From an uncultured Arenicella sp. (GTDB lineage Bacteria > Pseudomonadota > Gammaproteobacteria > Arenicellales > Arenicellaceae), in contig CALIVT010000001.1 in assembly GCA_938048185.1 (NCBI GenBank), positions 186,001-250,000 on the forward strand: 64,000 bases of DNA. The letters are read 5' to 3'. The position numbers and the translations under genes are program-made. The notes below the pieces were generated by a model, which saw only the letters and a program-made list of their open reading frames with translations, was not told the origin of the DNA and did not search any database. Every line of letters begins with the position of its first letter. The first letter of the stretch is position 1. Positions 8,942 through 38,425 of this stretch are shown in pieces.

Positions 8942-10485
<1,544 letters not shown>

Positions 10486-33237: not shown

Positions 33238-34830
33238 TCAAGCAAACAAGCCTTGTAAAAACCATTGTCTTTGAACTCTGTCATAGAATATCCATAACAA
33301 CCTACCGCTTCGTTGCCGAGCGATGAAGTAGTCGCGACTTTGCAGTTTTGACCACCAATGGCTGCTTACACGGTTGGGGCCGTGAATTAGATTGAGCGGG
33401 CCTTCTAGGTTAACTTGATTGTTGAATTGGGGTAATCGTTTCGGGTTTTCGAGTAGCCATAAAGGTTCGTCTTTAAATGGTTTTTCTACCGGCTTATTCG
33501 CAGGGCGATATGTCGTTGCATCCTCTCGTGTTTCTTGGGCTGCGTTTCTACGGCCATTAGCCAATTCAGGTAAGTGCTCGCTTTCTGAGCTTACTCTAAA
33601 CAATGCGGCATGGCCTAGACGGCTGCTGAGTTTGTCGATTAATTGATTGAATTGTTCTTGGCTTGGTTTCGGGTCAAATAGGTCATCGTTGTAAAGTTGT
33701 ATTGGGCAAAACTGCTTGCTGCTTAGTTCAATGCTGGTGAACTCCCAATCCAGTTTAATGCTTGCTAGTTTTAGGTCGGTAAGTTCTTTGAACACTTTGG
33801 CAATGTTTTGTTTTGCGCTAACGCCGATAGTGATGGTTTTTAGCAAACGATCATTCTTGTAACTATTCGCATGCTGGTGATTGCCTTGATGAAAGAAACG
33901 CCAAGTGAAGCTTCGGCAAATGAGTTGTCTGCTTGTGATGAAGTGCGTTAAGTCATTAAGCAGGCGTTCTAGTTGTTGTTGAATCCACGTGAAATTATGA
34001 ATCGGTTCTGCAAAGTCTGCGCTGGCATGAAATGTTTCTGGCGGAGTGATGCCTTTTTGTGGGTCGGCTACTCGACCCCAAAGTTGGTCTAAGTAGAGTA
34101 GGGTGTCTTTGCCAAATCGTTCGCCCAGTTCAGCACTAGGGATGTTTGTTAAATCACCCAAAGAATTGAAGCCGCAATTCAATAATTTCTGGATAATTTT
34201 TTTATCCAGATCGAGCATTGTTAGTTCTGCGCAGTCTAGTTTTTTTTGATAACCATTGAGCGTGTGTTGATTGCCATAACTTAATACACGCGCCGCCTTG
34301 GGCGTGAGGCCAAGCCCTATAGAAGTCTGAATTTTAAAGTTGCCTAGATCGTTGTTAAGTAAATTAATTAAGTGATCTAAACCATTGAATAATTTGGAGC
34401 TTTTGCCAATTTCAATAAGTAATATTTGGTCTTTTTGGCTGCGAACTAAACTCTCGCAACTGACTAAAGAGCTAAAACGGTAAGCCCAATAACTGAGCTC
34501 ACTGAGCTTGTTGGCTTCTGTTTTGATATCACGCTCAATGAAGAGCAAGTGCGGCGCTAGAATTAAGGCATGGTTAATACTCATGCCTGCTTCAATTCCG
34601 ATTTTATTTGCCGCTAAATTGCATTGCCAAATAGCGTTTTGATCGGTAATGGCCAACGGCTTAATGGGGTCTTGTTGCGCGGCTTTTTGATTAGCAGCTT
34701 CAACAAAATAAGCATGCCCTAATGCATTCAAGCTTATATGCGTAAAGCGTAAACAAAGCCAAACTTCAGTTGGGCTATGTGATTTTTTAGAGGGCTTTCG
34801 CCCTTGGTTTTTTTCACCAATCTGTCTCAT
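33238..34830 (-). CDS. imuB: ImuB, catalytically inactive Y-family polymerase homologue
   Basis: This 530-residue protein is the adaptor of the ImuA-ImuB(-DnaE2) mutasome used in SOS-induced mutagenesis. It has the Y-family fold outline: an N-terminal VWLCLRFTHISLNAL segment where active polymerases have their D.D metal site, a helix-hairpin-helix-like region (CGFNSLGDLTNIPSAELGERFG near residue 210-230, followed by a typical QLWGR), and the C-terminal PLWLLENPKRLP segment found in ImuB. Acidic catalytic residues are missing, as known for the family. It starts 13 nt after imuA. No dnaE2/imuC follows; the next gene is convergent and unrelated. Confidence 0.9.
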   Translation of the reverse strand: MRQIGEKNQGRKPSKKSHSPTEVWLCLRFTHISLNALGHAYFVEAANQKAAQQDPIKPLAITDQNAIWQCNLAANKIGIEAGMSINHALILAPHLLFIERDIKTEANKLSELSYWAYRFSSLVSCESLVRSQKDQILLIEIGKSSKLFNGLDHLINLLNNDLGNFKIQTSIGLGLTPKAARVLSYGNQHTLNGYQKKLDCAELTMLDLDKKIIQKLLNCGFNSLGDLTNIPSAELGERFGKDTLLYLDQLWGRVADPQKGITPPETFHASADFAEPIHNFTWIQQQLERLLNDLTHFITSRQLICRSFTWRFFHQGNHQHANSYKNDRLLKTITIGVSAKQNIAKVFKELTDLKLASIKLDWEFTSIELSSKQFCPIQLYNDDLFDPKPSQEQFNQLIDKLSSRLGHAALFRVSSESEHLPELANGRRNAAQETREDATTYRPANKPVEKPFKDEPLWLLENPKRLPQFNNQVNLEGPLNLIHGPNRVSSHWWSKLQSRDYFIARQRSGRLLWIFYDRVQRQWFLQGLFA

Positions 34831-35770: not shown

Positions 35771-35777
35771 AAATAGA

Positions 35778-35813
35778 GTATATATTGAATAGTGTACATA
35801 ATTCAATATATAC
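35778..35813. promoter_or_regulatory. 36-bp near-perfect palindrome and promoter-like sequence of imuA
   Basis: Arms GTATATATTGAAT (35778-35790) and ATTCAATATATAC (35801-35813) pair perfectly, and the centre contains the palindrome TGTACA. On the minus strand TTGAAT (35806-35801) and TATATA (35784-35779) are separated by 16 nt, a reasonable sigma-70 promoter ending about 8 bp from the imuA start codon. By symmetry the same pair exists on the plus strand. The dyad fits an operator over the promoter, as expected for LexA control of imuAB, but it is not the CTGT-N8-ACAG consensus of Gammaproteobacteria. The regulator is therefore unknown. Confidence 0.65.
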
Positions 35814-35818
35814 AAAAA

Positions 35819-35849
35819 AAGCCCACCTGAAACTAATCAGATGGGCTTA
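35819..35849. terminator. Bidirectional rho-independent terminator after ppsA
   Basis: AAGCCCACCTGA and TCAGATGGGCTT form a 12-bp stem with one mismatch (or G-U in RNA) and a 6-nt loop. Seven T follow on the minus strand, matching ppsA termination about 60 nt past its stop codon. Five T close after the stem on the plus strand would stop any transcript leaving the imuA palindrome in the other direction. Confidence 0.85.
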
Positions 35850-35909: not shown

Positions 35910-38294
35910 TCAAAGTTTCGCTAACCGTTCCCAAGTTTCGATTACCGAGTCAGGATTTAATGATACCGAATCGATTCCTTGTTCAAATAGCCATTCAGCG
36001 AAATCAGGGTGGTCGCTTGGGCCTTGACCACAAATGCCGATGTATTTCTCCGCGTCGTTACAGGCTTGAATTGCCATTGAAAGCATCTTCTTAACAGCCG
36101 GGTTACGTTCATCAAATAGGTGCGACACAATACCAGAGTCACGGTCTAAGCCGAGGGTGAGCTGGGTCATATCGTTAGAGCCAATTGAGAAGCCATCAAA
36201 ATATTTCAAGAAGTCAGAGGCGAGTAGGGCGTTAGACGGTAGTTCACACATCATAATCACTTTTAAACCATTCTCGCCCCGTTTCAGGCCGTTTTTGGCG
36301 AGCAAGTCGATAACCTGTTCGGCTTCACCGGTGGTTCTGACGAACGGAATCATGATCTCGACGTTGCTTAAGCCCATTTCATCGCGTACGTATTTAACCG
36401 CCTTGCATTCCATTTCGAAGCAGTCTTGCATGTTTGGGGCGATGTAACGCGAGGCGCCACGAAAACCGAGCATTGGGTTTTCTTCATCAGGTTCGTAGTC
36501 GTGGCCGCCAACCATGTGAGCGTACTCGTTTGACTTGAAGTCCGACAAGCGCACGATCACGCGTTTGGGGCTATACGCGCAGCCTAAAGTAGCAATGCCT
36601 TCCGCTAGCTTTTTAATAAAGAAGTCGGTGGGTGAGTCATAACCCGCTTTATATTCATCGATAATGGCTTTGACGTCAGGGGATTGCTTGTCGTATTCAA
36701 TTAACGCCTTGGGATGCACGCCTATCATGCGGTTGATAATAAACTCTAAGCGTGCCAGGCCGATACCTTCATGTGGCAATTGTGCAAAGGTAAATGCACG
36801 GTCTGGGTTGCCGACGTTTTGCATGATCTTGAAGGGTATTTCTGGCATTTTATCGAGTCGCGTTTCTTGCTTCTCGAAATCAAGTTCGCCTGCGTAGATA
36901 TAGCCCGTGTCGCCTTCGGCGCAAGAGACGGTGACCGCCGCGCCATCGTCTAATTTTTCAGTCGCGTCGCCGCAGCCGACAATTGCAGCAACACCAAGCT
37001 CGCGCGCAATAATAGCGGCGTGGCAGGTTCGCCCGCCGCGGTTTGTGACAATGGCCGACGCGCGTTTCATAACTGGCTCCCAGTCGGGGTCTGTCATGTC
37101 GGTAACCAGGATATCGCCCTCTTGCACGATGTCCATTTCATTGATGCTGAGTACTTTACGAACTTTACCCGACGCAATTCTTTGACCAATTGAACGGCCT
37201 TCAGCGAGCACCGTACTTTGTTCGTGCAGCTTGTATGAGACTTTAACGTTGGCATCTGCTTGACTAGCAACGGTTTCGGGGCGTGCCTGCACGATATACA
37301 ATTGTTGATCATCGCCGTCTTTGGCCCACTCAATGTCCATTGGGCGGCCGTAATGTTTCTCAATAATCATTGCTTGTTTGGCGAGTGACTCGACATCGGC
37401 ATCGCTAATAGAGAATCGCTGGCGTTCAGTTATATCAACGTCCACGGTGTCGACAGAGCGGCCGGCCGTAGTTTCGTTTGAATAGACCATCTTGATCAAC
37501 TTGCTGCCGAGATTGCGGCGCACAACCGCCGGGCGGCCTGCTTGCAACGTTGGTTTGTGCACATAGAATTCGTCAGGGTTAACTGACCCTTGGACCACCG
37601 TTTCGCCTAGACCATAGGATGACGTTACGAACACTACTTGGTCAAAACCTGACTCGGTATCGAGCGTGAACATAACGCCGGCCGAACCGGTTTCACTGCG
37701 TACCATGCGCTGAATGCCGGCTGAAAGGGCTACGTTTTCATGGGCATAGCCTTGATGCACGCGATATGAGATAGCGCGGTCGTTAAACAAAGAGGCGAAT
37801 ACTTCATGCACTGCGTGCTTAACCGCGGCGATGCCTTCTATGTTTAGAAAGGTCTCTTGCTGGCCTGCAAATGAAGCGTCTGGCAGGTCTTCAGCCGTCG
37901 CTGATGAGCGCACAGCTACTTTCAAATTCTGATTTCCGCCTTGCATTTCTAAAAACGCGGCTTCAAGGCTGGCGTCAAAGGCTTTGGGGAAAGGCGTTTC
38001 GATAATCCATTTGCGGATGTCCGCACCGGCGGAGGTTAAATCAGCGATGTTATCAACGTTCAAAGCGTCAAGTCGATCGTTGATGCGCCGGTCTAAACCG
38101 TCGGTTGCCAAGAACTCGCGATAGGCGTCTGCGGTGGTGGCAAAGCCGTTGGGTACGGATACCCCAAGCGAGCTTAAATTACCGATCATTTCGCCGAGTG
38201 AGGCGTTCTTGCCACCGACTTTTTCAACGTCGTTTATGGTAAGCTGATCGAATTCGAGAATGTAGTGTTGGTTAATCGTATGCTGGTTAATCAT
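35910..38294 (-). CDS. ppsA: Phosphoenolpyruvate synthase
   Basis: This 794-residue enzyme converts pyruvate and ATP to PEP, AMP and phosphate in gluconeogenesis. It has the N-terminal ATP-binding domain ([13 protein letters not shown] near residue 25, [20 protein letters not shown] near 130), the phosphohistidine domain [15 protein letters not shown] near 420, and the C-terminal PEP-binding barrel with [17 protein letters not shown] near 700 and GICGQGPSD near 750. The ATG at 38294 is preferred over the TTG two codons upstream. It is divergent from ppsR, its likely regulator. Confidence 0.97.
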
Positions 38295-38425
38295 AGTCAA
38301 AGCTTAATCCTCTCTCGTGGATTAATTATTCGTGGACGCGTAGTTTAACATGCTCGGGCTAATTAGAAGCATTAGCAACTCGCTATGCATCCATAATTTC
38401 GGCATTTCGCGATTTAATAAACGGC

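Follow-up and report, generated by a model that had tools for sequence, protein, structure and literature searches.

The window, by which we mean the whole 64-kb stretch of DNA that was analysed, comes from an Arenicella genome of 3.1 Mb in 42 contigs that is 98% complete. It contains imuA, which exceeds the curated NF033429 cut-off and so belongs to the ImuA family, and a Y-family gene that we name imuB from its position behind imuA (Table 1). The upstream neighbour, ppsA, stands outside this system. Its terminator ends so close to a long palindrome in front of imuA that there is little room for another imuA promoter, the region being about 45 bp.

Table 1. Features at and around the imuA promoter of the window.
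Feature	Position	Strand	Basis and remarks
imuA CDS, 308 aa	34844-35770	-	NF033429, E 6e-53; 179 bits against a cut-off of 150
imuB-like CDS, 530 aa, Y-family	33238-34830	-	PF00817, E 1.4e-9
ppsA, phosphoenolpyruvate synthase	35910-38300	-	Gene match
Intrinsic terminator of ppsA, stem 35848-35819	35819-35848	-	Terminator scan; directly before the palindrome
-35 hexamer TTGAAT	35801-35806	-	Promoter scan; inside the left operator arm
-10 hexamer TATACT, spacer 18	35777-35782	-	Separated from the ATG by 6 nt and from the core operator by 2 bp; in 10/10 promoters of the type
Predicted transcription start, A of the imuA ATG	35770	-	Placed from the near-constant distance of 6-7 nt
Core operator (predicted), TTGA-ATTAT-GTAC-ACTAT-TCAA	35785-35806	-	22 bp, 9/11 pairs; arms TTGA/TCAA, core GTAC
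Outer arm, imuA side	35778-35784		Mostly part of the -10 element
Outer arm, ppsA side (gtatata)	35807-35813		Only in the window's genome among 10 promoters of the type

The palindrome at 35778-35813 reads GTATATATTGAAT AGTGTACATA ATTCAATATATAC, that is, two 13-nt arms around 10 central bases. Sixteen of its 18 pairs match, and the two mismatched pairs are adjacent. No second 36-bp stretch with at least 16 of 18 matched pairs is present in the window, and 60 simulated versions of it (order-1 Markov) did not yield a single one. An earlier note on this DNA gave the palindrome with its correct sequence and coordinates, and the scan and simulations support its rarity. The hexamers are also as that note read them: TTGAAT-16-TATATA is found on both strands, with 8 nt from the minus-strand TATATA to the imuA ATG (35770-35768).

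The promoter was compared across 18 genomes of the genus (labelled G000-G017, G000 being the window's; loci are given L numbers). imuA is found in 13 of them, with no match in G002, G009, G011, G013 and G017, and the inner 22 bp of the palindrome, TTGA-N5-GTAC-N5-TCAA, stand at imuA in ten of these 13 (L003-L012). Two of the ten sites (L009, L011) have TCAT instead of TCAA as the right arm. All ten promoters share one geometry, TTGAWT-N17/18-TATACT-N6/7-ATG, where TATACT lies 6 nt before the ATG in nine and 7 nt in one. Judged by eye, the sequence upstream of the site differs among these relatives and the inner 22 bp are kept, indicating that the site is not part of ppsA.

As a functional unit the 36 bp are therefore rejected, since the far outer arm occurs in one of the ten promoters. 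The 36-bp palindrome with its TATATA as -10 element, as described in the earlier note, does exist, but the conserved -10 is TATACT and the conserved unit is the inner 22 bp. That note also saw a twin promoter on the plus strand; it would require the far outer arm, and because nine relatives lack this arm the twin promoter is probably a by-product of the symmetry.

A consensus promoter scan lists 35806-35777, with a spacer of 18, as the sole promoter-like site, where shuffled sequences give a mean of 0.6 sites. At sigma-70 promoters transcription begins roughly 7 nt downstream of the -10 element. Because the ATG lies 6-7 nt behind TATACT, the first transcribed base of imuA is predicted to be the A of the ATG or one beside it, and the mRNA to be leaderless, in all ten genomes. 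The nearly leaderless start proposed earlier for the window thus agrees with all ten promoters of the type. In other families of the order (L019, L021, L027, L031, L032) a LexA-type box is present and the imuA ATG, judged by eye, also lies a few bases behind a likely -10; a very short imuA leader may for this reason be old.

The window's genome encodes a second S24 protein (L070), a UmuD of 220 aa with an N-terminal extension (HGGARPGAGRP..EPTKAIRVP). Its start codon carries CATTTGATTAGTTGTACACTAATCAAATG, with spacers of N6/N5 and the ATG following the right arm. When the genome is searched with TTGAN{4,6}GTACN5TCAA, four places are found: imuA, the start of this umuD-like gene and two inside ORFs. 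Searching the inner site with three mismatches gives one place in this genome, where a control pattern also matched once, and across the 18 genomes it gives the imuA sites mixed with other, mostly weaker ones. The spaced pattern also matches places in the other genomes. With that one place and the two extra ones inside ORFs in the window's genome, a wider regulon was rejected under these patterns; a looser GTNAC pattern is found at 7 places in the genome, so that a wider regulon may exist.

The C-terminal part of the extended UmuD is an S24/UmuD domain (PF00717, E 6e-33; NF007621, E 7e-46), and the Ala-Gly site (A102, G103) and the Ser/Lys dyad (S138, K175) show no variation across 51 extended UmuD sequences. 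The extension matches no Pfam family. A structure predicted from 51 rows has a pLDDT of 76, good for the S24 part only, and shows one helix (35-46) and no visible DNA-binding fold in the N-terminal part; a first model from 14 rows (pLDDT 35) was useless. From its sequence we would guess that the extension may bind DNA through a GRP motif resembling an AT-hook, together with a short strand and a helix.

In the fetched DNA around the extended umuD of the genus, umuC was not found. At the extended-umuD loci of other lineages, some of which end at contig ends, umuC is present in 32 of 49, one case being known from annotation. UmuC was also not found in the window's genome at its 98% completeness: the sole match reaches 81 bits against a cut-off of 431 and is a frame of 364 aa, which we take to be the size of DinB. 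Since no UmuC is seen, a Pol V role for the extended UmuD of this genome is unlikely. Better UmuC matches exist in G003, G007, G008 and G010, on contigs with a non-extended umuD. Behind the umuD-like gene of the window's genome, in place of umuC, there is a weakly YefM-like antitoxin ORF (E 0.0003; L194, 2682-2954, G000:C5).

The site tends to accompany the extended UmuD. Extended umuD genes were taken from 54 loci of a contig collection, the 30 best loci of a class sample of 369 genomes, the genus and two named records. A site was counted at 11 or more of the 12 arm and core bases, with spacers of 4-6 and within 220 nt before the extension; excluded were 3 loci with cut upstream DNA (L068, L126, L172) and 14 rows at least 90% identical to another. 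Within the genus all 12 non-redundant extended-umuD genes have the site directly before the ATG (11 with 12/12 bases, one with 11). Outside it the site is found at 30 of 42 (11 with all 12 bases), leaving 12 without a site under this rule. The corresponding numbers for UmuD/S24 genes without the extension are 0/15 outside the genus and 1/7 within it (L208), although here the compared regions end at the matched S24 start instead of at the extension and thus hold less non-coding DNA. Mononucleotide-shuffled DNA of the same regions gives a site rate of 0.2-0.9%.

Members of other orders also pair the site with an extended umuD, as do records named Nitrosomonas and Gallionella. Further, an extended UmuD is encoded in all ten genomes with the imuA site. 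The spacers differ by one base, N5/N5 at imuA versus N6/N5 at part of the umuD sites of the genus, so the predicted operator measures 22 bp at imuA and 22-23 bp at the umuD-like gene, around a 4-bp GTAC core. At imuA of other Gammaproteobacteria the site was found in none of 30 loci, the best-scoring ones of 113 genomes over the cut-off among 369, and imuA as a target is therefore known from one genus only.

Some of the sites deserve separate mention. Two Legionella loci (L143, L144) and one of Gallionella (L119) have extended umuD genes with GTAAC cores, for example TTGAAAAATGTAACATTTTTCAA, which is nearly the UmuDAb operator of Acinetobacter. Four Methylophaga genes (L130, L132, L135, L139) are preceded by long palindromes with another core, TTGATTAACTGTTTCAATTAATCAA in three of them; these genes, with their odd core GTTTC, count among the 30 of 42, and the palindromes are perhaps a drifted operator. 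Before the non-extended umuD of G007 (L208) a LexA-type box is followed by TTTATTATTGTACAAATTTCAA. Three more non-extended genes (L209, L210 and L211, in G010, G008 and G005) show, by eye, GTAC and then a right arm near the start, and their genomes also encode the extended UmuD. Among L208-L211 a LexA-type box lies ahead of the GTAC core and right arm in two, and by eye the core-and-arm elements of all four may be half-operators. A further short-umuD locus, L207, yielded no ORF. Because non-extended umuD genes show GTAC and a right arm, the regulon may extend to Pol V genes in genomes that have them.

Regulation by a UmuD protein is described for Acinetobacter, which has no LexA; its repressor is UmuDAb, a UmuD that depends on an N-terminal extension to repress (excerpts of PMC11332147 and PMC4807011). 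According to the same excerpts its operator consists of TTGA/TCAA arms and a GTnAC core, the core outweighs the arms and one arm is enough; another study, cited in them, finds both arms needed. The excerpts also treat the extension as a possible acquisition of Acinetobacter, and those of PMC11332147 report that UmuDAb binds its site in gel-shift work. UmuDAb control is described there and in parts of PMC8565304 for Moraxellaceae only, and some features of the operator are called unique to Acinetobacter.

Our reference for UmuDAb is locus L158 of A. baumannii. It encodes a 203-aa protein with A83-G84, S119 and K156, and has TTGAAAATGTAACTTTTTCAA in front as well as a divergent 83-aa ORF; the residues and the upstream site agree with the descriptions of UmuDAb (excerpts of PMC4807011 and PMC11332147). 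When a profile of the 51 extended UmuD N-termini, with no Acinetobacter and one Alkanindiges among them, is run with hmmsearch, it finds the UmuDAb N-terminus of A. baumannii at E 1.6e-17, and the best of 1000 shuffled decoys in the same search reaches E 0.05. The N-terminus of LexA from the window's genome is not reported by this profile, even at E up to 1000. Since a profile without Acinetobacter finds UmuDAb and LexA is not reported, the Arenicella extension is, judged by its sequence, homologous to the N-terminal domain of UmuDAb.

In general the Arenicella protein resembles UmuDAb: both are S24 UmuD-like proteins with a homologous extension and conserved cleavage residues, a GT(n)AC core flanked by TTGA/TCAA arms marks both their own promoters and error-prone polymerase genes (here imuAB), and no umuC is found beside the gene in Arenicella. 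However, a few differences can be observed. Arenicella also has a LexA with its own boxes, the target is imuAB, and binding is a prediction. Further, the site is 22-23 bp with a GTAC core, compared to 21 bp and N4-GTAAC-N4 in Acinetobacter; by its bases it is a relative of the UmuDAb operator and not that operator itself. None of the 18 genus genomes matches the 83-aa ORF of L158 at E 0.001, in a search with no positive control where the ORF was taken as DdrR from its place. The record of L158 (NZ_CP077849.1, 3.66 Mb) is filed as a plasmid, yet it carries umuDAb, which suggests that it is a chromosome. Three Alkanindiges loci (L149-L151) have an extended umuD followed by umuC; we take this genus to belong to the Moraxellaceae. 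The fellow Moraxellaceae of Acinetobacter are said to lack umuD homologues in excerpts of PMC3978071.

What the sequences show is the site, how far it and its geometry are conserved, its second occurrence at the umuD-like gene, the N-terminal homology and the cleavage residues, and together these point to the orphan extended UmuD. With a probability of about 0.8 we consider imuAB to be repressed by this RecA-cleavable, UmuDAb-type protein, which would coexist with LexA. Binding, repression, cleavage and the leaderless start are inferred as follows. RNA polymerase would read the minus-strand TTGAAT-N18-TATACT and begin transcription with the A of the imuA ATG or a base beside it, producing a leaderless mRNA. 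A dimer of the extended UmuD, or a pair of dimers, on TTGA-N5-GTAC-N5-TCAA would cover the -35 element and the spacer, end 2 bp before the -10 and shut the promoter. The extended UmuD would also repress its own gene, where the start codon comes immediately after a similarly built site. Upon DNA damage, self-cleavage at Ala102-Gly103 by Ser138/Lys175 would be stimulated by RecA filaments and would detach the DNA-binding part; imuAB and the gene of the repressor would then be switched on, and autoregulation would restore repression.

Three other explanations have to be weighed. imuAB is LexA-controlled in many bacteria, and the host LexA could bind the palindrome as a non-canonical operator and repress imuAB. 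Within other families of the order, 10 of 17 imuA loci have a lexA-like gene as neighbour and CTG-N10-CAG boxes occur at 7; at class level, a LexA-like gene is present in the fetched DNA of 26 of 30 imuA loci and a CTG-N10-CAG box at 2 of the remaining 4; and three imuA genes of the genus itself have boxes of this type. LexA is over its cut-off in 15 of the 18 genus genomes, including the window's. The gammaproteobacterial LexA box is CTGT-N8-ACAG, and boxes of this type are found in the window's genome at recA (CTGTATAAATTAACAG) and, with one change from the canonical form, at lexA (CTGGATATTAAAACAG), but the 400 nt that precede imuA in the window contain no CTG-N10-CAG. Searches of the genome for the palindrome and for its inner part, of the kind that the earlier note proposed, gave no place at lexA or recA. 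LexA was therefore rejected as the binder, a role in which it is very unlikely. What holds of the earlier proposal is that the site looks like an operator overlying the imuA promoter, probably serving a damage regulator; the note's bracketed option, another regulator, is better supported than LexA, the candidate being the orphan UmuD with its UmuDAb-type extension.

It is also highly improbable that no regulator is involved, the symmetry then being incidental to a promoter that works in both directions or belonging to a longer ppsA terminator. The palindrome does abut this terminator and promoter-like hexamers do occur on both strands, but such symmetry is rare by chance, and by eye the inner 22 bp are kept where the upstream sequence differs, and the far outer arm is not. 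An unrelated regulator, for example of TetR or MarR type, might instead act on both imuAB and the umuD-like gene, in which case UmuD would not be a DNA-binding protein. A shared site does not name the protein that binds it, and the extension has no Pfam match and is poorly modelled. We nevertheless find this unlikely: the site accompanies extended umuD in other orders, Nitrosomonas and Gallionella, it is missing from the 15 genes without extension outside the genus, and UmuDAb, with its homologous extension, binds such a site in gel shifts (excerpts of PMC11332147).

With the extended UmuD as the preferred repressor, the ten promoters can be compared with the three remaining imuA genes of the genus. 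These (L013-L015, in G012, G008 and G004) have CTGT-N8-ACAG boxes before imuA. Two of the three genomes encode an extended UmuD, G008 with a LexA box only and G004 with both kinds of site at one promoter, where TTGAAAAGAGTACGTTAATCAA, a UmuD-type site, follows 6 nt behind the LexA-type box. This double site (L196 / L015, G004:C31, about 10079-10122) is possibly an intermediate in a change of control. Because the ten and the three divide along one branch of the ImuA tree, with moderate support (84/68), one change of control suffices; the direction is not given by the tree. LexA control is suggested to have come first, since the order-level imuA loci often adjoin a lexA-like gene or bear CTG-N10-CAG.

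The third gene of the mutasome, dnaE2, is placed differently in the two groups. It is close to imuA on the same contig in the LexA-boxed genomes G012, G004 and G008, and on another contig than imuA in six of the ten site-bearing genomes (G000, G003, G005, G007, G014, G015). G010 has only a partial match, on another contig, and the only match in G001, G006 and G016, all less than 90% complete, is of DnaE1-like identity (30-32%). In the six genomes, and in G017, an integrase frame lies directly before dnaE2. For G000, on which alone the profile was run, it is an integron integrase (TIGR02249, 388 bits versus 265). A box of CTGT-N8-ACAG type precedes the integrase in four of five readable promoters (G000, G015, G007, G014), none being found in G005; two further promoters stand outside this count, as contigs or fetched stretches end there. 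Integrase and dnaE2 apparently form one operon (L226, G000:C29:73500-78018; also L237, L239, L240), and in G015 (L237) two 84-nt repeats, which to us look like attC sites, lie beside them. From the UmuD-type site at imuAB and the LexA-type box before integrase-dnaE2, it appears that imuAB answers to the UmuD-type repressor and dnaE2 to LexA.

The lexA2-imuA-imuB-dnaE2 arrangement is a known form of the LexA-controlled mutasome cassette. Arenicella has the same mutasome genes, and in G004, G008 and G012 imuA is LexA-boxed with dnaE2 near. In contrast, the window's imuAB is without a LexA-type box, and its dnaE2 is found on a different contig, preceded by a LexA-boxed integron integrase. HdiR and the S24 repressors of Bacteroidetes are also non-LexA S24 proteins that govern error-prone polymerases, but they are phage-repressor-like, those of Bacteroidetes being COG2932 (excerpts of PMC8565304); the Arenicella protein is UmuD-like and differs in its N-terminal part and site. 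Earlier cases of non-LexA S24 control are given in these excerpts for Streptococcaceae and Moraxellaceae. Among the matches listed in the open-licence literature we found no report of UmuDAb-type control outside Moraxellaceae or of imuA, and the excerpts of PMC7273328, PMC13148647, PMC3765255 and PMC3978071 contain nothing on either.

Control by a self-cutting UmuD-type repressor is known so far from Acinetobacter. Tentatively, and at slightly less than even odds, we suggest that UmuDAb did not arise as a speciality of Acinetobacter but belongs to a broad class of UmuD-type repressors, cleavable with RecA, in Gamma- and Betaproteobacteria. Acting at GT(n)AC operators, this class would keep mutagenic polymerases silent, in some genomes beside LexA. 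In Arenicella the UmuD-type repressor would have taken over imuAB from LexA, with dnaE2 behind a LexA-boxed integron integrase, so that a functional ImuA-ImuB-DnaE2 mutasome would require the removal of both repressors, as if induced mutagenesis were under a lock with two keys. If this is true, UmuD-type repressors are a second, widespread damage switch that is able to coexist with LexA, and what the N-terminal extension of UmuD does could be tested in bacteria other than Acinetobacter. It would also be a case of a mutasome passing between repressors, G004 having the two site types together at imuA, and would connect induced mutagenesis with the control of integrons.
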